A stretch of DNA of 64,000 nt from Flavobacteriaceae bacterium (GTDB lineage Bacteria; Bacteroidota; Bacteroidia; Flavobacteriales; Flavobacteriaceae), in NCBI GenBank assembly GCA_002862805.1, contig PKEA01000047.1, positions 1 to 64,000 on the forward strand, written 5' to 3'. This document shows positions 6,947 to 29,331 of this stretch, piece by piece. Numbering within the stretch: position 1 is the stretch's first letter; each line of letters starts with the position of its first letter. Position numbers and translations under genes: made by a program. A model generated the notes under the pieces. The model was not told where the DNA came from and ran no database searches. It saw only the letters and a list, made by a program, of their open reading frames with translations.

Positions 6947-9900
6947 TTATTGTTCTCTATTGATATAAACCCATCCAGTTCTTGAAGCCATGTCATTAAA
7001 TTGAATAACATAGTAGTAAGTTCCATCTGGTAATTCATTTCCGTTATTAGACTTACCTACCCATTCATTTGTATAGTTTGATTTAGAATAAACTTCTTTA
7101 CCATATCTATTAAATATTTCAACTTTTTTAACATCAAAACCAGATAAATCCCAACTATCGTTTAATCCATCTCCATTTGGAGAAACTCCTTTAGGAATAG
7201 TACAACTTTCAACAAATACAACTAATTCTCCAACTTGACTACATGAAGCATTGTTTGGAGTAAAGAAATAGGTTGTTGAACCTAAAACAGAAACATCAGC
7301 AACAGCTGGTGACCAAGTTCCGCTATATCCTTCTAGTGATTGAAGTGGTAATTGGAAATTTGAACCAACACATACTTCTACATCATTAAAAGTTGGAACT
7401 TCTTCACCATTTATAACTAATTCATACTGACTAGTTCCACTATTTATACAGTTTGTAGCATCTTGAGCAAAAGTATAAGTAATAGTATAAGTACCTGGGA
7501 AGCTTGAAGATAAATCTACTTCTCCTGTTGAAGGGTTTACAACTATATTAGAATTATTTCCAGCGAATGTTCCTCCTGTGTTAAATCCAGTAACTGACGT
7601 ATCAGGTAAAGGGTTAGAAGTGCTTGAAATACAAACTGGACTTACATATGTAAATGTTAGAACCGGATTAGTAAACACAAATGGATCAATTGTAAATGTA
7701 TATGGTTCTGAGAAACAACCTGTAATTAAATCATGAACAATCAACGTATACGTTCCAGGAGTTACGCCTGTAAAGTCAACACTTGTTTGAGTTGTTGTTG
7801 ATGTACCATTACTTAAGATATACTCATAATCTGTAACATATAATGTATAGAAACCAACATCTGAATAATCTTCTGGGTCAAGTAGTGACCAGTCTGCAGG
7901 ATCCCAAGTAACGCTTGGTAAAGTTGCAGTAGTTAATCTTCTGTAAGTATATCCAACTCCAGGAGTAAACACTGTTCCGTTGATTCCCCAAACATCTAAA
8001 ATTACATCTGTGCTATTTGATAAAGCAATTTGGTCATTGTTATTAACACCTCCACAAGTTGTAAAACTTAAATCTGGTGTAACTCCTCCTGTATTTGCAC
8101 TTGTACTTAATTTAATGACAACTACATCGTTATTAGATAAAGTTCCTGATAAAACTAAATCACATGAAGGAGCTGCATTTCCGTTAGTATACACTTTTAA
8201 CTTGTAATTACTTAGGTTAACAGTAGCTCCTGTTCCATTGTACACCTCAACATAAGTTAATGCTCCAGTAGCTGCGTCAGTAACTTCAGATATAAATAAA
8301 TCTGAAGCGGTATTTAACTGCATATTTAATGGAGATAATACTTCAAATGTTGCTGTTTGATCAGCACATGTTGGTAACGAAGTAATATCTATTGTTGGAA
8401 CAGGTACAGAGTTTACAACAATTGTAATTGTATTACCTAATGCATTATTACAAGTTCCATCATTAATATTGCTTAATAAAACAACTACATCAGCAGTAGG
8501 ATTAGGAACTGTAATTGTAGCAGAACCTGTAGCGTCTAAATCAACCGTTTGAGCAGTAGCTGTACCTATCGTATAAGTTACAGTTGCATTTGGTGTTCCT
8601 GTGATGGTAAATTCAGCATCACTTCCTAAACAAATTGAAGGGTTAACAGCAGTTAAGCTAGTAACAGTAGGTAAGGCTCTTACCACAACTGTAGATGAAT
8701 TTGTTAAAGCCGTGTTACAAGCTCCGTTATCAATATCTGATAAATTTAACACTACGTTTCCAACAGCTGGCGCCGTAACAGTAATTGTTACAATACCTGA
8801 AGCGTCAATCGGAATTGTTTGAGTAGCTCCCGTTCCTATTATATAACTTAAAGTAGTATTTGCCGAACCAGTTACAGTAAATACAGCATCCTCACCAACA
8901 CAAATTGGAGTATTTGAAGTAACATTAGTTACTGAAGGAGCCGGGTTTACTACTACAGTATAAGGTGTAAACACTGTTGCACATTGACCTGCATCTGGCA
9001 TAAATGTGTAAGTTGTTGTTTGTGTATTATCAACCGCAGGTGACCATGAACCTGTAAAGCCTTCTATAGATGTTGTTGGCAATGTAATCACATCTCCAAC
9101 ACAGAATGGGCCAACTTGAGTAAATGTTGGATTGTATACTGGGTCAACTAAAGTAATAGCAATAGCATCGTTTATTGTACAGCCATTTATTGTAAAATTA
9201 AATCCTGTATAATCTCCTGCAGGTAAATTTGAAATAATAATATCTCCATTTACATTGGCTGTATAATTAATTGGTCCTACTGGTGCCGTATCTTGTGTAT
9301 AAGAAACTCCATAAGTATCTCCTGGTGTAAATCCAGAAACAGTAATAGATCCTTCTGTACCATTACAAGTTGAAGGGTTAACTGAAACAAATGAAGGCGC
9401 AGATTGTATTGAAAAAGTAGCTGAATAATATAATCCTCCATTGTCAAGGACAAGACTGTCATCACATTGAGTAGGGTCATCATTATCTCCAGTTACATCA
9501 TAATAAACTTCAATAATATAATTACCAGGTGTATTTGTAGTTAAATCAATAGCAGAAGAAACTTCTTGCCATCTTTGATCTCCACTTGAACAAGAAGCAC
9601 CTCCTGTTGGATAAGTACCCGTTGTACATTCTTCTAGTAATGGTAAGTTTACAACTGTAAATGCTCCAGGAGCACTAGAAGCTTCATACACTCTATAATT
9701 TAATCTTGCACTACAAACATTTGAAGTAGCTGTTTTAAAAGTTCTTAATTCTGCTCCATTAAAAATTAGGTTTCCAGAAGCTTGAACATAAGTACCTAAA
9801 TCGCTATTTGGGAAAACATTCATTGCTGATCCTATAGTTTGAGAACCAGAAGTTGTATTGAAAAATTCACCGTTAGCGGTTGTATTACAATCATCTAATA

Positions 9901-12900
9901 AGACAGCACTAGCTATTGTACCAAAAGTACATGTAGCCAATACTTGGACATTTAAAGTGACTGTAGACGCACATTGTCCAGCATCTGGTGTAAATGTATA
10001 AGTAGCCGAATTCATATTATCAACTAATGCAGGTAACCAAGATCCTGTAATACCATTATTAGAAGTGTTAGAAAGTACTGGCGCTGTATCTCCAGAACAA
10101 ATAGGTGCTGGTGAAATAAACGAAGGCACAGTTTCTGCATTTACTGTAATTGAAACATCTATTGGTATAGCACACTGACCTGCGTCTGGTGTAAATGTGT
10201 AAACTCCCGAATTCACATTATCAACTAAAGCAGGTAACCATGTTCCTGTAATTCCATTAGTTGAAGTATTAGGTAAAGTCGGCGCTGTAGTGTTTTCACA
10301 AAACGGAGCAATTGCATTAAAAGTTGGAGTTACTAAGTCTAAAACTGTTATTTCAACAAAATCAGAAGTTGCACAAAGTGAGTTAGTATCTGTAGATTGT
10401 ACATTTACTGTATAAACTCCTGGTGCAGGAGGTGTAAACGTAACTGTAGAACCAGTAGTTGCACTTAATCCAGTATTTGGAGTCCAATTATAAATTCCGT
10501 TACCACCTGTTGCAGTTAAATTTACCGTTTCATTTATACAAATTGTTGGATTTACTGGTGTTAATTCAACGTCTGTAGAAGTTGAACCACCTGAAGTTAC
10601 TGTAACAGAATAATCACAAACTGCTCCTGCATAACCATCAATCATTAAATAATATGTTTGACCAATAGTCAACCCTGTAAATGACAATGCATTTACTCCA
10701 GGGTTCATTGGAGAAAAACAATTTATAGAAGTTACAGGCCCACTACCACAAGTAGCAGCTGTAAATACATAAAACTGAATTCCTGAGCCATTCGTACAGT
10801 TTCCTACATTTACATCCATTGTAATTGAAGTTGCTGTTGCTTGAAAGGTCAAGAAAGAGTTGTTTTCAATAGAACCACAAAAAGCGGTTGTTAATTGAGA
10901 CCATGTATTTACAGTATATGTGTTTGATGTGTTACCACAGTAACCATCTAAGTTACATACAGGCGCAGCTGTAGGACAGTCATTTCCTGCTGGCGAAGAA
11001 CCACTACAACCAGGAAATAATGTATTAAACGTTCTAGGTCCTGACCAAAAACTTAAACCATCTGTAGAACCACAATCAGATAATACATAAAACTCATATG
11101 GAGTATTAGGGTTTAATCCAGTTACTGTAAAAGGATTAGATGAAGCATTAATTATTGTAGAAGCTCCTGTAGGATAACCTGAACCTGCAGGTTGAACCAC
11201 AATTTGCCAATTAGAAACCCCAGTATTAGTATCCGTCCAAGACAATGTTGCCTCAGTTGAAGTAATACCTGTTACAGTTAATGCTGTAGGTTGTCTACAA
11301 GGAGGTGGAGGTGAACAAATAATTGTTGCATCCCAACCAATACCCGTTACTGATGAATCAGAATTAAATACAAATGTCAAACATCCTGAAGCGCTTGTCG
11401 CAGTATATTGAGGCGGTAATGCAGTTCCTGCATAAGTACCTACTAAAGGTGAAGCAGAAGTTGGACCATCATAAATTCTTAGACTATCACAACAACTCTC
11501 TAAACCAAAAGTGTTAAAAATAACGGTTACAACTTCTCCAGCATTATCAGGACAAATTGTTGTAGTAACATTAGTTTGACTATTAGAATAGTTACCAGTA
11601 GCTCCTCCTTGATCATAAAAATGATCCCCAGCACAATAAAATGGCTGTGTTGTAAATGTTGCTTTTGTTGACCATAAACTTAAGTCAGTTGTAGGAGTAC
11701 AAATAGCACGAACATAAACATCATATGTTGTTTGTGAATTTAAACCTGTAATTGTATATGGATTTAAACTTGTTGTAACACCCACAGAACCAGCAGTTGG
11801 AGCTGGTGAACCAGCTGGTAACCAAATTACTTCCCATTGAGTAGCAGAGCCTGTTTCAGTCCAGCCAACATTTGCAGTTGTAGCTGTAATTGCTGTCATA
11901 GTTAAAGCTGTTGGTTTAGGACATGTTGGCACTGGTGCACAAGTTACGTTTGATGTCCATCCAACTCCTGTAACACTTCCATCTGAAGTGAAATTAAATG
12001 TCAAGCATCCATTTGCTGCCGAAGAAGTAAAGGCTGGCGGCATATTAGTACCTGTGTAAGTTCCTAATAAAGGTGCTGCTGTACTATTTCCATCATAAAT
12101 TCTTAAAAAATCCCAGTTATTTTCAATATTAAATGATGTAAATGTAACCGTAACTAATTCCCCAGCATTTGTAGGGCAAATTGTAGTCGTAATGTTTTCA
12201 CTATTAGAATAATTCCCTGAAGCACCACCAGAATCTACAAAATTACCTCCGCAAACAGGTGGTAAAGCTGTAGTTGTAAAATTCATTCCTCCAGACCAAG
12301 CACTTGAATTATCTGTTCCACACAATGCTCTTACATAGTATGTATAATTTGTTAAAGGAGAAAGACCTGTTAAGTTATAAGGTCTCGTTACTGGCGAAAC
12401 GACTGTTCCTGTACCCTGAACAAAACCAGCAGGGCCATATTCAATTGCAAACTGAGTAGCAGGACCAGTATATGTCCAGTTTAAAGTTGCAGATGTAGAT
12501 AATGGTGTAACAGTTAATGCCGTTGGCACTACAGTACATGCTTGATCTACATTTACATTATCAACAATCCATGCATCACCGTTGTCATTTTCCATAACAA
12601 ACGCAATGTAAATACTTTGATTTGCATATGCTGTTAAAGGAATAACTTTTTGTTCAAAAGGAGCATTTATGATATCTAACTCTGTGTAGGTTACAAGTGT
12701 AGTTGTAAAATCCGCAGGATTATTTTGAGAAGCAGTAGAGATCTTTACTTTATAAATACTCCCCTGCTCTCCGTTAGCAATAGATCTTGCAAAAAACCTA
12801 AGTTGTCCATCTGTTGGAACCGTAACTAATGGAGTAACCATCCAATCTTCAGCTATTCCAGAAGTAACATCTTCTTTGTTAATAATTGCAGCCTTACCTC

Positions 12901-13081
12901 CGGCATAAACCCAGCCTAATCCAGTTGCAGTAGTTGTAGTCCAACTTCTTGTTGTACCAATCCCATTGTCAAAAGTAGTCCAACCCGTTGGTGGAAATGT
13001 CGCACCTTCGAAACCTTCAGACAATTGCCCGTAACTAAAGAAAGTGAATAATGACATGAAAAAAAGTAATAATTTTTTCAT
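6947..13081 (-). CDS. Giant multidomain surface adhesin with type B T9SS domain
   Basis: A 2044-residue secreted protein with signal peptide 'MKKLLLFFMSLFTFFSYG'. Domains in order: choice-of-anchor J/MAM-like (about 20-178), fibronectin III (about 183-270), CUB-like (about 275-382; 'GGASGNYSNSENITTTICP'), Fn3, a second CUB-like (about 480-590; 'GGATGNYSNSQTNVTTTICP'), Fn3, a Cys-bearing beta-domain near 700-840, a series of Ig-like repeats with 'TYTFTPDAGQCA', a lamin-tail-like domain (about 1590-1710; 'ISEVTDAATGALTYVEVYNG'), and the C-terminal gliding-motility domain (about 1960-2044; 'PKGVSPNGDGLNDSWDL', 'VEIFNRYGKEVY'). The type B tail predicts T9SS export and SprF dependence, and sprF- and porE-like genes follow in the same operon. 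Carbohydrate or surface adhesion is inferred. Confidence 0.9.
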   Translation of the reverse strand: MKKLLLFFMSLFTFFSYGQLSEGFEGATFPPTGWTTFDNGIGTTRSWTTTTATGLGWVYAGGKAAIINKEDVTSGIAEDWMVTPLVTVPTDGQLRFFARSIANGEQGSIYKVKISTASQNNPADFTTTLVTYTELDIINAPFEQKVIPLTAYANQSIYIAFVMENDNGDAWIVDNVNVDQACTVVPTALTVTPLSTSATLNWTYTGPATQFAIEYGPAGFVQGTGTVVSPVTRPYNLTGLSPLTNYTYYVRALCGTDNSSAWSGGMNFTTTALPPVCGGNFVDSGGASGNYSNSENITTTICPTNAGELVTVTFTSFNIENNWDFLRIYDGNSTAAPLLGTYTGTNMPPAFTSSAANGCLTFNFTSDGSVTGVGWTSNVTCAPVPTCPKPTALTMTAITATTANVGWTETGSATQWEVIWLPAGSPAPTAGSVGVTTSLNPYTITGLNSQTTYDVYVRAICTPTTDLSLWSTKATFTTQPFYCAGDHFYDQGGATGNYSNSQTNVTTTICPDNAGEVVTVIFNTFGLESCCDSLRIYDGPTSASPLVGTYAGTALPPQYTATSASGCLTFVFNSDSSVTGIGWDATIICSPPPPCRQPTALTVTGITSTEATLSWTDTNTGVSNWQIVVQPAGSGYPTGASTIINASSNPFTVTGLNPNTPYEFYVLSDCGSTDGLSFWSGPRTFNTLFPGCSGSSPAGNDCPTAAPVCNLDGYCGNTSNTYTVNTWSQLTTAFCGSIENNSFLTFQATATSITMDVNVGNCTNGSGIQFYVFTAATCGSGPVTSINCFSPMNPGVNALSFTGLTIGQTYYLMIDGYAGAVCDYSVTVTSGGSTSTDVELTPVNPTICINETVNLTATGGNGIYNWTPNTGLSATTGSTVTFTPPAPGVYTVNVQSTDTNSLCATSDFVEITVLDLVTPTFNAIAPFCENTTAPTLPNTSTNGITGTWLPALVDNVNSGVYTFTPDAGQCAIPIDVSITVNAETVPSFISPAPICSGDTAPVLSNTSNNGITGSWLPALVDNMNSATYTFTPDAGQCASTVTLNVQVLATCTFGTIASAVLLDDCNTTANGEFFNTTSGSQTIGSAMNVFPNSDLGTYVQASGNLIFNGAELRTFKTATSNVCSARLNYRVYEASSAPGAFTVVNLPLLEECTTGTYPTGGASCSSGDQRWQEVSSAIDLTTNTPGNYIIEVYYDVTGDNDDPTQCDDSLVLDNGGLYYSATFSIQSAPSFVSVNPSTCNGTEGSITVSGFTPGDTYGVSYTQDTAPVGPINYTANVNGDIIISNLPAGDYTGFNFTINGCTINDAIAITLVDPVYNPTFTQVGPFCVGDVITLPTTSIEGFTGSWSPAVDNTQTTTYTFMPDAGQCATVFTPYTVVVNPAPSVTNVTSNTPICVGEDAVFTVTGSANTTLSYIIGTGATQTIPIDASGIVTITVTAPAVGNVVLNLSDIDNGACNTALTNSSTVVVRALPTVTSLTAVNPSICLGSDAEFTITGTPNATVTYTIGTATAQTVDLDATGSATITVPNPTADVVVLLSNINDGTCNNALGNTITIVVNSVPVPTIDITSLPTCADQTATFEVLSPLNMQLNTASDLFISEVTDAATGALTYVEVYNGTGATVNLSNYKLKVYTNGNAAPSCDLVLSGTLSNNDVVVIKLSTSANTGGVTPDLSFTTCGGVNNNDQIALSNSTDVILDVWGINGTVFTPGVGYTYRRLTTATLPSVTWDPADWSLLDPEDYSDVGFYTLYVTDYEYILSNGTSTTTQTSVDFTGVTPGTYTLIVHDLITGCFSEPYTFTIDPFVFTNPVLTFTYVSPVCISSTSNPLPDTSVTGFNTGGTFAGNNSNIVVNPSTGEVDLSSSFPGTYTITYTFAQDATNCINSGTSQYELVINGEEVPTFNDVEVCVGSNFQLPLQSLEGYSGTWSPAVADVSVLGSTTYFFTPNNASCSQVGELVVFVESCTIPKGVSPNGDGLNDSWDLSGFDVKKVEIFNRYGKEVYSKSNYTNEWVGKSNNGNELPDGTYYYVIQFNDMASRTGWVYINREQ
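9929..10327 (-). repeat. Tandem Ig-like coding repeat inside the adhesin gene
   Basis: Two adjacent units of 67 and 66 codons encode nearly the same domain (shared 'TSTNGITGTWLPALVDN' and 'YTFTPDAGQCA'). The DNA copies are also clearly alike, implying recent duplication. More diverged copies occur near 8940-9140 and near the 3' end of the gene. Confidence 0.8.
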
Positions 13082-13994: not shown

Positions 13995-15259
13995 TCTTGT
14001 TGTTCTAATTCTTCAACTTCTTTTTCTAAATCCAATTTTCTGAATGATGGAGAAACAATAGCTGTCCCAAAAACTGTCACTAAAGTCATACACCCTCCAA
14101 AAACAACAGCTGGCACAACTCCCATTAATTTAGCGGTTAAACCACTTTCGAAAGCACCTAATTCATTAGAAGAACCCACAAAAATAGAATTCACAGAAGA
14201 GACTCTTCCACGCATATTGTCTGGAGTATGTAATTGCAATATAGTATTTCGAATCACAACTGAAACACCATCGGCAACACCACTTAAAAATAAGGCTACA
14301 ACAGAAATCCAAAATATTTCTGAAACACCAAAAACAATTATACAAAGTCCAAATACAAAAATGGCTGTTAATAATTTTACACCCGCATTTTTATTCAACG
14401 AAAAGTAAGCTGCTGCTAACATAGTTACGATAGAACCTACCGCTGGTGCAGCACGAAGAATTCCAAAACCTTCCGACCCAACTTTTAAGATGTCTTGCGC
14501 AAAAATGGGCAATAATGCAACTGCTCCTCCAAATAAAACTGCAAACATATCTAAAGAAATTGCACCTAAAATGGTTTTATTATTGAATACAAATTTTACC
14601 CCTTCTTTTAAACTTTGAAATATAGGTTCACCAATTTTAGGATTTAAAATAGGCTTTTTAGAAATTTGGGTCAACCAAAACAAAGCAAACAGAGTACATC
14701 CAAAAACCAAACACATTGACCAATGTACTCCTATAATTCCAATAGAAACTCCAGCTAATGCAGGACCAAACATAGAACCCATTTGCCAAGTTGAACTACT
14801 CCAAGTTGCAGCATTTGGGTAATTTTTCTTTGGAACAATTAAAGATAAAAGTGAAAAAACAGTTGGACCAATAAAAGCTCTCACTAATCCTCCGCAAAAA
14901 ACCAAAGCATAAATAATTCCTAAAGTTGTCGATGTAGAAAGTGACTCAACAACACTTGGAACCGTTACTAAAAAAAGTCCTAAACTGATGATTGAAAAAC
15001 CTAAAAGGCATTTCATAAGCAGACTTCTTTTTTCATTCTGGTCAACGATATGTCCTGCAAATAAAGCCATTGAAACAGCTGGAATAATTTCCATTAAACC
15101 AATAATTCCTAATGAAAGTGGATCTTTTGTTAAACTATAAACTTCCCATTCAATAATTACAAATTGCATGGACCAAGCAAAAACCAATGCGAATCGCATG
15201 GAAAGAAAAAAACGAAACTCTTTAAATCGTAATGCTGCGTATGGGTCTTTTTTAGCCAT
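13991..15259 (-). CDS. MFS transporter (ENTS/multidrug exporter-like)
   Basis: A 422-residue integral membrane protein with about 12 predicted helices. The region after helix 2 reads 'GHIVDQNEKRSLL', matching the major facilitator motif A (G-x-x-x-D-x-x-x-R-R). The overall form, including the loop after helix 6 ('SKKPILNPKIGEPIFQSLKEG'), resembles the enterobactin exporter EntS and related MFS drug-efflux proteins. The substrate is unknown. The gene starts within the last 8 bases of recJ and is presumably cotranscribed with it, which is a common but functionally unexplained arrangement. Confidence 0.85.
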   Translation of the reverse strand: MAKKDPYAALRFKEFRFFLSMRFALVFAWSMQFVIIEWEVYSLTKDPLSLGIIGLMEIIPAVSMALFAGHIVDQNEKRSLLMKCLLGFSIISLGLFLVTVPSVVESLSTSTTLGIIYALVFCGGLVRAFIGPTVFSLLSLIVPKKNYPNAATWSSSTWQMGSMFGPALAGVSIGIIGVHWSMCLVFGCTLFALFWLTQISKKPILNPKIGEPIFQSLKEGVKFVFNNKTILGAISLDMFAVLFGGAVALLPIFAQDILKVGSEGFGILRAAPAVGSIVTMLAAAYFSLNKNAGVKLLTAIFVFGLCIIVFGVSEIFWISVVALFLSGVADGVSVVIRNTILQLHTPDNMRGRVSSVNSIFVGSSNELGAFESGLTAKLMGVVPAVVFGGCMTLVTVFGTAIVSPSFRKLDLEKEVEELEQQD

Positions 15260-16952
15260 TTGAAGGTTTGATGTCGCGTAATTGAAGCTGCAAAGTTACA
15301 ACATCTCTCCATTCATTTTCTTCTAAAGAAACAATTGCATCAAACTTTTGCAAATTTTTAACAACTGATAATTTATCTCCAATTTTAAACCCAATTGCTC
15401 CAAAACTTTCTGAATTACCTTGTTTAACAAACGCTTTTAAATGTTCATTATCTGAACCCAAATTTTTTGCATAACCTGAATCCGTTAATTCTTTTATCAA
15501 AAATAAAGGCGTCATATTTTGAGGACCAAAAGGTTCAAATTGTTTTAAAATTCGCATCAATTTTGGGTTTACTTCAGTCAAACAAATTTCAGCATCATAT
15601 TCTAATTCTGGAATCAACAAATCAGGATGTATGGTTTCTTTTACTGTTTTTTCAAATGCGCTTTTGAAGTTTTCGTAATTTTCTTCTAGGAGTGTCATTC
15701 CGGCTGCATACATATGTCCGCCAAATTGTTCCAAATGTTCTTCGCAAGCTTCTAATGCATTATAGACATCAAAATCTTTTACCGAACGCGCAGAAGCAGC
15801 TAATTTATTGCCACTTTTTGTAAAAACAATTGTAGGTCTATAATAGGTTTCGATTAATCGAGAAGCTACAATACCAATTACGCCTTTGTGCCAATTTTCT
15901 TGATACACCACAGTAGAAAATCTTTTTTCTTCATTTGAATCGGTAATTTGAGATAAAGCTTCTTTGGTAATTTGTTTGTCTAAGCCTTTACGCTCGTTAT
16001 TATTGTCTTCAATTTCTTTGGCAAACTCTTCGGCTTGAGCCAAATTGAATTCGGTTAATAAACGCACCGCATAATCGCCATGTTTAATTCGGCCAGCAGC
16101 ATTGATTCGAGGAGCCACAACAAAAACAACGTCGGTTATGGTAATTTCTTTCTTTTTTATGGATTGAGTTAATGCCTTTATTCCTGGTCTTGGATTAGAA
16201 TTTATTACTTCTAATCCAAATTTCGCTAACGTTCTATTTTCTCCCGTAATAGGAACAATATCAGCCGCAATTGCAGTAGCAACCAAGTCTAAATATGGAA
16301 TTAAATCTTTTGCTGTTTGGTTTCGATTTTTCCCCAAAGCTTGAATTAATTTGAACCCAACACCACAACCGCATAGTTCGTCATAAGGATAGGAGCAATC
16401 TTCACGTTTTGGATCTAAAACAGCAACGGCTTCGGGCAATTTATCTCCAGGTCGGTGATGATCACAAATGATAAAATCAATGTCTTTTTCTGCAGCATAA
16501 TTTACATGGTCAACTGATTTTATTCCGCAATCTAAAGCTATAATTAAAGTAATTCCATTGTCTTCAGCAAAATCGATTCCTTTATAAGAAATTCCGTAAC
16601 CTTCGGCATAACGATCTGGAATATAAGTAGCAACATTGGGGTAAAATGTTCGTAAATAACTTGAAACCAATGAAACAGCTGTTGTTCCATCTACATCGTA
16701 ATCGCCAAAAACCATTATATTTTCATTGGCAGCAATTGCTTTTTCAATTCGCGCAACCGCTTTATCCATATCTTTCATTAAATATGGATCATGTAAATCA
16801 TCTAAAGACGGACGGAAAAAAGTTTTGGCTTGTTCAAAGGTTTCAATTCCTCTTTGAACTAGTAAAGTCGCAATAATTTCATCGACTTGAAGTGCATTTT
16901 GTAAGGCTTGTACTTTTTGTTTTTCGGGCTTTGATTTTAAATTCCAACGCAT
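15252..16952 (-). CDS. recJ: Single-stranded-DNA-specific exonuclease RecJ
   Basis: RecJ degrades single-stranded DNA 5'->3' in recombination and repair. The 566-residue protein has the DHH phosphoesterase motifs: 'FGDYDVDGTTAV' (82-93), 'ALDCGIKS' (139-146), 'CDHHRPGD' (163-170), and a DHHA1 domain with 'GGHMYAAGM' at about residue 410. An OB-fold follows to the C-terminus. Length is close to the family norm. The following MFS gene overlaps it by 8 bases. Upstream lie AT-rich direct repeats and then the GIY-YIG element. Confidence 0.93.
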   Translation of the reverse strand: MRWNLKSKPEKQKVQALQNALQVDEIIATLLVQRGIETFEQAKTFFRPSLDDLHDPYLMKDMDKAVARIEKAIAANENIMVFGDYDVDGTTAVSLVSSYLRTFYPNVATYIPDRYAEGYGISYKGIDFAEDNGITLIIALDCGIKSVDHVNYAAEKDIDFIICDHHRPGDKLPEAVAVLDPKREDCSYPYDELCGCGVGFKLIQALGKNRNQTAKDLIPYLDLVATAIAADIVPITGENRTLAKFGLEVINSNPRPGIKALTQSIKKKEITITDVVFVVAPRINAAGRIKHGDYAVRLLTEFNLAQAEEFAKEIEDNNNERKGLDKQITKEALSQITDSNEEKRFSTVVYQENWHKGVIGIVASRLIETYYRPTIVFTKSGNKLAASARSVKDFDVYNALEACEEHLEQFGGHMYAAGMTLLEENYENFKSAFEKTVKETIHPDLLIPELEYDAEICLTEVNPKLMRILKQFEPFGPQNMTPLFLIKELTDSGYAKNLGSDNEHLKAFVKQGNSESFGAIGFKIGDKLSVVKNLQKFDAIVSLEENEWRDVVTLQLQLRDIKPSNG

Positions 16953-16958
16953 ACTTAA

Positions 16959-16991
16959 TTATGAATTAAAAATTATGAATTATTATGAATG
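16959..16991. repeat. Short AT-rich direct repeat upstream of recJ
   Basis: ATTATGAAT occurs three times in 33 bases, between the recJ start codon and the left repeat of the GIY-YIG element. Similar AT-rich repeats are common between genes in Flavobacteria. Confidence 0.5.
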
Positions 16992-17030
16992 GCTTATATA
17001 ATACAAATGTATAATTATTTTTTATTTTTT

Positions 17031-17060
17031 TGTCATTTCGACCATAGGGAGAAATCACAT
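17031..17060 (+). repeat. Palindromic repeat, left copy
   Basis: The arms TGTCATTTC and GAAATCACA pair at 8 of 9 positions around the core GACCATAGGGA. The first 29 bases are identical to the inverted copy at 29303-29331. Confidence 0.85.
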
Positions 17061-17068
17061 ACTAATAA

Positions 17069-17389
17069 TCAAAAATGATGATTTAAAAATTCAAATTCAG
17101 AATTAAACTTTTTTATTAATTCTAATTTCTTTTCTCTTCTCCATTTTTTCAGTTCTTTTTCTCTTGCAATAGCTTCCTCAACCCAAACAAATTTTTCGTA
17201 ATAAACTAAAAATCCTAAATTATATTTTGAAGCAAACGTTTTGTTTCCTTGTTCTAAATTTTCTTTGTGTTGCTGTAATCGTTGTTTTAAATTATTTGTC
17301 ATACCAATATAAAAAGTAGATCTATATTTATTGGTAATTATATAAACATAATAAGAATGAAAGCCTAATTGCGGATTGAATTCATTCAT
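17069..17389 (-). CDS. Single-domain GIY-YIG endonuclease
   Basis: A 106-residue protein consisting almost only of a GIY-YIG nuclease domain (as in UvrC and homing endonucleases): 'YYVYIITN' (13-20), 'FYIGMTNNLKQRLQQHK' (26-42) with catalytic Arg37, and the metal-binding Glu in 'EAIAREKELKKW' (about 77 or 79). The C-terminal tail is basic. Solo GIY-YIG proteins of this size are frequent in Flavobacteria and often present in many copies; their role is not established. This copy is tightly bracketed by inverted palindromic repeats, suggesting that the protein recognises or mobilises them (inference). Confidence 0.88.
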   Translation of the reverse strand: MNEFNPQLGFHSYYVYIITNKYRSTFYIGMTNNLKQRLQQHKENLEQGNKTFASKYNLGFLVYYEKFVWVEEAIAREKELKKWRREKKLELIKKFNSEFEFLNHHF

Positions 17390-17405
17390 GATTTAATTTT
17401 ACTTT

Positions 17406-17434
17406 ATGTGATTTCTCCTTGCGTCGAAATGACA
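17406..17434 (-). repeat. Palindromic repeat, right copy (inverted)
   Basis: On the minus strand it reads TGTCATTTCGAC, then a core differing from the left copy (GCAA against CATAG), then GGAGAAATCACAT. It sits just upstream of the GIY-YIG start codon. Confidence 0.85.
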
Positions 17435-17439
17435 AAGTT

Positions 17440-17859
17440 TTACTTATGAAAAAAAGTTTTAACCTCAACAGTTGCAAACTTTCTAAACATTTCCATTACA
17501 CCACAGTATTTTTCTACTGATAAATCAACTGCGCGTTGTAATTTCTTCTCATTTAAATTATTCCCATAAAAATGATATTCAACCGTTACGTGGTCGTAAA
17601 TTTTTGGATGTTCTTCTGTTAAGTTTGCAGATGTTTCAATTTTAAAATCAGTTACTTCTAACTTCATTTTTTCTATTAATGAAGCCACATCTAGGCCCGA
17701 ACAACCCGCTAAAGAAGCCAACATCATTGCTTTTGGTCGTAAACCTGCTCCTTCGCCACCATTTTCTTCTCCGGCATTGATTGATACAGTTTCTCCACTA
17801 GGATTTGTAGATTCAAATTGCATTTTTCCTTTCCAAGTTGTAGTTACGTTGTGTGTCAT
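17440..17859 (-). CDS. OsmC family peroxiredoxin-like protein
   Basis: OsmC/Ohr proteins reduce organic hydroperoxides with a pair of Cys residues. With the start at 'MTHNVTTTWKGKMQFE' the protein is 139 residues, with reactive Cys53 in 'LAGCSGLDV' and Cys119 in 'EKYCGVMEMF'. An in-frame GTG at 17895 would add 12 residues ('MSFLTIKQINNK'), but the shorter form matches the family N-terminus, so the ATG at 17859 is preferred. It is the last gene of a minus-strand cluster with rsmI. Confidence 0.88.
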   Translation of the reverse strand: MTHNVTTTWKGKMQFESTNPSGETVSINAGEENGGEGAGLRPKAMMLASLAGCSGLDVASLIEKMKLEVTDFKIETSANLTEEHPKIYDHVTVEYHFYGNNLNEKKLQRAVDLSVEKYCGVMEMFRKFATVEVKTFFHK

Positions 17860-17894
17860 TTTATTATTGATTTGTTTAATTGTTAAAAAACTCA

Positions 17895-18062
17895 CTAATC
17901 ATTATATAATTTCACAATACCCACTAATCCAATAGAGAATATAAAGATTCCAGATATTATAAAAAAAGTGTTTGCATTTTTAAATCCACGAAATGCAATT
18001 GTAATTCCAATAATAAAGGAAAGTATTGTAATTAGAAATATAATTTTAGAACGTTTTTTCAT
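17895..18062 (-). CDS. Small two-helix membrane protein, hypothetical (55 aa)
   Basis: From ATG at 18062 the product is 55 residues: a basic start 'MKKRSK', helix 1 (about 7-21, 'IIFLITILSFIIGIT'), a short charged loop 'FRGFKNAN', and helix 2 (about 33-50). A longer form from 18095 would overlap rsmI, so the internal ATG, 5 bases after the rsmI stop, is preferred. No family was recognised. Confidence 0.6.
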   Translation of the reverse strand: MKKRSKIIFLITILSFIIGITIAFRGFKNANTFFIISGIFIFSIGLVGIVKLYND

Positions 18063-29302: not shown

Positions 29303-29331
29303 TGTGATTTCTCCCTATGGTCGAAATGACA
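29303..29331 (-). repeat. Solo palindromic repeat, third copy
   Basis: Read on the minus strand it is identical over 29 bases to the left repeat of the GIY-YIG unit at 17031-17059. It lies between a terminator and the 3' end of the AIM24-like gene, with no nuclease gene beside it. Confidence 0.9.

Follow-up and report, generated by a model that had tools for sequence, protein, structure and literature searches.

REP-RAYT systems combine GTAG-tagged REPs with a tyrosine transposase of the HUH type, and free-standing GIY-YIG homing endonucleases, such as I-TevI and those encoded by phage genes, are known for selfish insertion into intergenic DNA. The group UPF0213 (COG2827) comprises single-domain GIY-YIG proteins such as E. 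coli YhbQ, B. halodurans BH0048 and E. faecalis EF2693. For GTAG REPs, the link to RAYTs has been described (PMC3733652), and passages of the same paper deal with CGTC-tagged REPs from five phyla that ‘apparently lack a dedicated transposase’. According to those passages, no examined tyrosine transposase gene had flanking CGTC sequences, and the authors left open whether the partner enzyme had been lost or replaced.

The locus analyzed here lies in a stretch of 64,000 nucleotides (the window; positions 1 to 64,000 of contig PKEA01000047.1) from a Flavobacteriaceae bacterium. It holds a solo GIY-YIG nuclease gene between two inverted, tagged repeats (Table 1) and is likely to be a small mobile unit composed of a REP, the GIY-YIG gene and an inverted REP, one of a large set of units that have their own CGTC or TGTC REP families and work like REP-RAYT. 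The feature is real and general, and it probably functions as an enzyme-repeat pair. In common with the REP-RAYT (or REPtron) arrangement outlined in passages of PMC3733652, it has few enzyme genes, many short tagged palindromes, inverted repeats around the gene, inverted pairs (REPINs, HH dimers) as gene-less units and matched families of enzymes and repeats. Unlike that arrangement, it has a GIY-YIG (PF01541) enzyme in place of an HUH/Y1 enzyme and a TGTC/CGTC tag in place of GTAG; membership in REP-RAYT itself was rejected for the window locus, which has no HUH domain and no GTAG tag.

Table 1. Positions in the window of the gene and its repeats, the flanking genes and the further repeat copy
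Feature	Positions	Strand	Remarks
recJ	15252..16952	-	one flank of the insertion site; syntenic in cassette-free relatives
recJ-side repeat	17029..17061	+	TTTGTCATTTCGACCATAGGGAGAAATCACATA; TGTC head outward, AATC tail gene-facing
Solo GIY-YIG nuclease gene, 106 aa	17069..17389	-	
osmC-side repeat, inverted copy	17405..17436	-	TTTGTCATTTCGACGCAAGGAGAAATCACATA; head outward
OsmC-family gene	17440..17895	-	internal ATG at 17859; other flank of the insertion site
Lone third window copy of the repeat	29303..29331	-	loop same as in the recJ-side copy

The gene is framed by inverted copies of GTCATTTCGA..GAGAAATC, also given as TTTGTCATTTCGAC..GGAGAAATCACATA. In each copy, two 14-nt blocks are 100% complementary to the opposite copy, the framing copies differ by one base of loop length, and repeat, gene and inverted repeat together span 408 bp. 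This agrees with an earlier note on this DNA that had placed a GIY-YIG gene between inverted repeats, as both the 106-codon ORF and the inverted copies were located. The gaps of 8 and 16 bases given there measure 9 and 17 from the ends of the 29-mer to the ORF. The inverted arrangement it described also stands, and its description of each repeat as a hairpin holds only weakly, the folding energy being -3.6 kcal/mol (z -2.3) for the recJ-side window copy and -2.5 kcal/mol (z -0.8) for the osmC-side one. As single-stranded DNA, this hairpin has 5 bp and 3 bp around a mismatch. The third copy in the window appears, from a reading of the sequence, to lie between a prolyl-oligopeptidase-like gene and the next convergent gene. 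A large gene nearby, at 6947-13081 of the window, encodes 2044 aa; its translation reads as a repetitive protein of the secreted type, in which the repeats are fibronectin-like and the C-terminus is of the gliding type. A structured RNA was rejected as an explanation of the locus, with no Rfam match up to an E-value of 1 for 16900-17600.

A 26-nt pattern of the repeat matches the window at 17031 (+) and at 29306-29331 (-), and the average in 100 shuffles is 0.01 matches. In the 2.67-Mb genome, the strict pattern GTCATTTCGAN{2,10}GAGAAATC has seven copies and its reversed control pattern has none. Two of the seven are those that frame the window gene; the other five show no partner within 1.5 kb under a relaxed pattern and no inverted dimers. 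Both window copies carry the tag TGTC, and relatives with a visible tag have CGTC or TGTC, so that the window repeat has the CGTC, TGTC or CCTC tag at one end that is characteristic of CGTC-REPs. Compared with the CGTC-tagged REPs in the passages of PMC3733652, it shares the CGTC or TGTC tag, the short stem-loop, the inverted dimers and the dispersed copies, and it differs in the enzyme that is proposed here and in its stem, which is 5 bp long in the window and 8-9 bp there. The full combination of a stem of that length starting with AT, a loop of 4-5 bp and a tail that is mostly CCA is absent from the window, where the tail is CACA. Several alphaproteobacterial and CCTGC-type relatives do have long stems, in some cases together with CCA tails. 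The repeats are therefore either members of the CGTC/TGTC-tagged REPs or similar to them, and the window copy, given its differences in stem and tail, is classed with their relatives and not as a strict member.

The window ORF scores 62.9 bits with the Pfam GIY-YIG profile PF01541 (cut-off 22.6), which places the protein in that family, and GIY-YIG and T5orf172 are the only Pfam families found on the framed gene. Among 71 sequences, Y27, G29, R37 and H41 are conserved in all 71, E77 in 70 and Y16 in 69, and the window protein keeps all six residues, which include the catalytic Tyr, Tyr, Arg, His/Tyr and Glu of the GIY-YIG family. The AlphaFold model of the protein has a mean pLDDT of 88.7. In a fold search, the best match was 1zg2 (E 1.3e-3) and none reached E ≤ 0.001; the nearest solved folds, all above E 0.001, are those of the UPF0213 protein BH0048 and, further down, SLX1, UvrC and I-TevI. 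By sequence profile, the nearest solved structures are 1zg2 and 1ywl, and the sub-threshold matches of the nuclease name homing or intron endonucleases. The window protein is of the same single-domain GIY-YIG type as UPF0213/COG2827. A defence gene was rejected as an identification, the PADLOC matches being weak only (best E 1.1e-4).

Recurrence of the framing was evaluated with a pair score, defined as the best local alignment between the left flank of a gene and the reverse complement of its right flank, with a threshold of 30. The PF01541 search covered 80 genomes of the same family, and contexts of 10-20 kb were used for 60 listed short frames, mostly the highest-ranked ones, together with the window. 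A score of at least 30 is reached by 33 of 68 solo GIY-YIG genes versus 20 of 939 other genes; if the controls are restricted to genes that have 50 bp or more of gap on each side, the count is 11 of 334 (Fisher p 2.8e-20 versus GIY-YIG). Inspection of 12 control cases at a score of at least 32 gave mostly AT-rich stretches by reading and one IS-like case. The controls are other genes of the same regions, and they replace a first cross-locus control, in which only 5 of the first 32 loci exceeded the 99th percentile and which is read as confounded because repeat families are common to several genomes.

The tagged hairpins themselves are concentrated around the genes. Hairpins with a [CT]GTCA tag reach 1.15 per kb in the 150 bp next to GIY-YIG genes; their density then falls to 0.50 at 150-300 bp and 0.08 at 300-600 bp, and the background at 1 to 10 kb is 0.05 per kb. 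A strict test of the paired arms requires a [CT]GTC tag and a perfect 5-nt stem. With the pair score set at 26 or more, 17 of 47 GIY-YIG loci and 2 of 90 paired controls pass it; at 30 or more, 13 of 33 GIY-YIG loci do. At these 33 loci, the tag points head-out only in nine, in both directions in three and head-in in one, with no tag direction in the remaining 20.

The layout extends beyond the family. In a sample of 95 loci, made up of 80 named genome contigs found via one protein clade and 15 records of a plasmid collection, 53 reach a score of at least 30, versus 6 of 1900 dinucleotide shuffles. A further sample, drawn from one alphaproteobacterial order and from other named genomes, gives 26 of 51 genes, and the proportion within that order is 17 of 32 (one locus counted twice). 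The same layout is found in Alphaproteobacteria, Neisseria, Fibrobacteria and Rickettsiales, and the stems of the wider sample include CGTCATCCTCGGGCTTGACCCGAGGATCCA. Repeats thus adjoin solo GIY-YIG genes elsewhere, in 33 of 68, 53 of 95 and 17 of 32 cases, and the concern that they might never do so proves false. About half of the solo genes in each of the three samples have no pair at a score of at least 30 (35 of 68, 42 of 95 and 25 of 51).

Within the window genome, five frames match PF01541. Three of them are short (102-112 aa); the two long ones measure 600 and 459 aa, and the 600-aa frame is probably UvrC. Besides the window gene, one solo gene is framed by inverted GTCATTGCGAGG.ACGAAGCAATC with a score of 54, and the other by ATTCCTGCGAAGGCAGGAATC / ATGCCCGCGAAGGCGGGTATC with a score of 22, below the threshold. 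All three solo genes have the same relative orientation and different repeat stems; the repeat of the gene with score 54 folds weakly (-2.4, z -0.2) and that of the gene with score 22 strongly (-8.0, z -6.7). Solo genes also occur in groups in other genomes, with four within about 6.2 kb at one locus (L073) and two very similar copies about 1 kb apart at another (L087), pointing to local duplication. On plasmid p1 of Planktothrix agardhii (L217), a solo GIY-YIG gene with a repeat pair of score 36 has an MmeI-type restriction gene on one side and the DISARM gene drmA on the other.

Enzyme clades and repeat families correspond to each other. The 47 loci whose pair score is 26 or higher were compared between genomes; a Mantel test of protein identity against repeat similarity gives a Spearman coefficient of 0.46, a value reached by 0 of 2000 permutations. 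The stems largely follow the clades of the protein tree, and include CCTGCGnAGGCAGG, CTGAAnT..TTCAG, GAGCGCAGTCGA, TTCGAGTG..TATCGAGA, GTCATTnCGA and others. Among the 80 genomes, with membership set at 115 bits or more for the CCTGC clade and 130 bits or more for the CTGAA clade, all 16 genomes of the first group carry the CCTGC-stem repeat, versus 24 of 64 others, and all 13 genomes of the second have at least seven copies of the CTGAA-stem repeat, versus 11 of 67 others. The cross pairings are weaker, 11 of 16 versus 13 of 64 for the CTGAA repeat (at least seven copies) with the CCTGC clade and 10 of 13 versus 30 of 67 (p 0.07) for the CCTGC repeat with the CTGAA clade, and they arise in part because eight genomes hold both clades. 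The match between clade and stem may partly reflect co-inheritance of a moving unit and not recognition.

The possibility that the repeats are abundant where solo GIY-YIG genes are lacking, which would have severed the proposed link, is partly answered by the 41 of 80 genomes without a match to the A3 clade model (E ≤ 1e-12), which may carry solo GIY-YIG genes of other clades. Their median is 0 copies of both repeats, the two families counted being others than that of the window, and 6 of the 41 hold at least four copies of at least one family (G024, 4; G075, 36 and 17; G019, 5; G052, 7; G061, 17; G063, 4). The repeats of G075 and G061 are orphans in this sense, and further orphan repeats, of the CTGAA family, are found in G071 (74 copies) and G028 (40 copies), where no gene of that clade exceeds the threshold. 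A further genome, G005, contains 26 and 21 copies of two repeat families and a broken GIY-YIG gene with six stops; decayed GIY-YIG copies with several stops lie at C11:2637-2915 and C4:4322-4504. Decayed genes in a genome with surviving repeats are what is expected after loss of a selfish enzyme.

Filled and empty sites were compared at the window locus and in Azospirillum. Nine relatives of the same genus have a close osmC, and seven of these loci show osmC together with recJ. In this comparison, which the earlier note had suggested, none of the seven carries the nuclease gene between them. The osmC-recJ gap is 13-68 bp in four relatives and 269 bp without the nuclease gene in one, and contains other genes in two. 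One of the relatives, L106, has a lone degenerate repeat at the recJ-side position, a score reached by 0 of 1000 shuffles. Beside this repeat, a different 110-aa gene lies between osmC and recJ (L106:1921-2253), whose product reads as HopJ-like from its sequence, and in another relative, L109, a 224-aa gene occupies the junction on the opposite strand; the osmC-recJ junction seems to take up small genes repeatedly. In Azospirillum lipoferum 4B, the GIY-YIG gene between two repeat pairs is located between sufB and sufC, and both repeats and gene are absent from all four relatives compared, A. ramasamyi, A. oryzae, A. sp. B510 (flank identity 95-96% for these three) and A. argentinense (91%). 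The empty gap of A. sp. B510 contains another short GC-rich palindrome. No target-site duplication or clean boundary is readable in Azospirillum or in a Sinorhizobium repeat pair, the junctions being too diverged.

Gene-less pairs were found in genus-mates. The window repeat is present in 25 of 41 genomes of the genus, and its copy number rises to 64 in G085, 84 in G087 and 121 in G094. Of the neighbouring copies in G085 that are no more than 150 bp apart, 21 of 22 show +/- order, mostly at 74-78 bp from start to start, and in G119 all six neighbouring copies are in +/- order, 42-46 bp apart, so that both genomes show the mainly inverted (HH) dimers of CGTC-REPs. A GIY-YIG gene was looked for in the window genome, G085 and G094, in the latter two in regions chosen by copy spacing, and lies between inverted copies in G085 (L324:891-1205) and in G094 (L325). 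For 13 hand-picked pairs of G085 and G094, the inner 26 bases match a cassette inner end at 26 of 26 ends (p at most 0.01, 200 shuffles each). None of eight comparisons of the short G119 pairs with the G085/G094 cassette ends gives a match, a comparison weakened by the short spacers (about 20 bp). In the G085 cassette, the two inner ends mirror each other over 29 bp; those of the G094 cassette are not mirror images of each other. At 29 other loci of the genus with the window repeat, no GIY-YIG frame occurs within 1.5 kb, as is expected because the copies are dispersed.

In G085 and G094, inverted ends around a gene thus occur together with gene-less copies that keep both ends, as in a transposon with its MITEs. 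Judged by their sequences, the dispersed pairs look like gene-deleted cassettes. The shared inner ends are the anatomy of an autonomous unit and its deleted derivatives, and entry of the gene into an existing pair fits them equally well.

This second possibility is the core of an alternative in which REP pairs spread by other means and the GIY-YIG gene, as a free-standing homing endonuclease gene, enters the spacer of an existing pair of its target family after cutting there. It would account for the weakly shared I-TevI fold, for the homing and intron endonucleases among the sub-threshold matches, for the repeat without the nuclease gene at the recJ-side place in L106, and for inner ends common to cassettes and repeat pairs. 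It is nevertheless considered unlikely. In Azospirillum, this kind of repeat is absent from the four empty relatives, which thus show no earlier target, and homing leaves unexplained both the tracking of copy number with the matching clade and the spread of CGTC REPs by other means. The unit shares its catalytic fold and its selfish intergenic insertion with the homing endonucleases, but differs from them in its size of about 100 aa, its single domain, its full inverted repeats in place of a split target, and its gene-less derivatives.

A considerably less probable explanation is that another transposase (a RAYT, another IS200/IS605 enzyme or an IS) moves repeats and gene alike, with the nuclease as a passenger or stabiliser. 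GTAG REPs provide a precedent in their tie to RAYTs, but no examined tyrosine transposase gene in the PMC3733652 passages was flanked by CGTC sequences, and a passenger is not expected to match the stems clade by clade. Slighter still are the prospects of a resident function, in which the enzyme trims or resolves REP cruciforms for the host and the nearby repeats are regulatory, for example terminators. This would suit the structure-specific nucleases among the nearest solved folds. The related E. coli gene yhbQ, for which RefSeq gives the annotation DNA damage response nuclease, has closely packed neighbours and, unlike the window gene, is not framed by a repeat pair (flank score 16); this relative may be resident. 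The patchy presence of the units, the broken copy in G005, the several different repeat-enzyme pairs in one genome and the sufB-sufC copy, however, all look selfish. Chance placement of small genes in repeat-rich intergenic DNA, to which the commonness of repeats in some genomes and the unclean first cross-locus control might point, has practically no probability left given the same-region controls, the match of clades and stems and a hairpin density near background within 600 bp, and on these results together with the genome copy counts it was rejected along with an insulator reading, provided that the samples are representative.

Wider relationships of the proposed mobile units may be seen in Sinorhizobium, where long repeat pairs flank the GIY-YIG gene at three loci (L214, L263 and L264) and share a conserved, GC-rich centre, and where the gene of S. 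meliloti Ak57 has long repeat pairs with a conserved central part on both sides. These pairs resemble RIME1 elements, which are not known to have a partner enzyme, suggesting that RIMEs may be part of the same GIY-YIG system. The plasmid collection contains 33 records with a match, and Azospirillum lipoferum, Novosphingobium aromaticivorans, Sinorhizobium meliloti and Neisseria are common to these matches and PMC3733652, the other genera not being among the taxa named in the passages of that paper. Among the literature matches listed, no title or start of an abstract joins GIY-YIG to REPs, in a search whose scope excluded subscription papers and most preprints. Nothing was found for GIY-YIG with ‘extragenic palindromic’, and the titles returned with ‘miniature inverted-repeat’ concern eukaryotic genomes, their viruses or transposons generally. 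In the part of the 2025 REP survey PMC12306157 that was searched, no word starts with GIY, nuclease, transposase or RAYT, and the part of PMC6006769 searched has no GIY.

The proposal that the nuclease and its hairpin form a GIY-YIG counterpart of REP-RAYT is supported by the recurrence of the layout, the match of clades and stems and the dispersed pairs, from which recognition, cutting and spreading are inferred. In the proposed mechanism, the nuclease would recognise the tagged hairpin of its own family, which could be presented as a cruciform or, while the DNA is being replicated, in single-stranded form, and would nick beside the tag. Its nearest solved folds include that of SLX1, a nuclease of branched DNA, besides those of UPF0213, UvrC and I-TevI. 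From the nick, host repair would copy the unit, or in trans a gene-less pair, into other locations, and single repeats would be remnants after decay.

On balance, it is somewhat more likely than not that solo GIY-YIG proteins are the long-missing mobilising enzymes of the CGTC/TGTC REP superfamily across bacteria, and that they define a minimal class of DNA transposon (about 0.4-0.5 kb, one gene) with REPIN- or MITE-like derivatives and matched clades and stems. If this is true, an open question would become testable with a protein of roughly 100 aa and a substrate of roughly 26 bp, and many annotations of the type ‘GIY-YIG nuclease family protein’ would gain a function. Natural sets of matched enzyme-hairpin pairs would be on hand, and the range of enzyme chemistries behind bacterial transposon-like elements would be wider.
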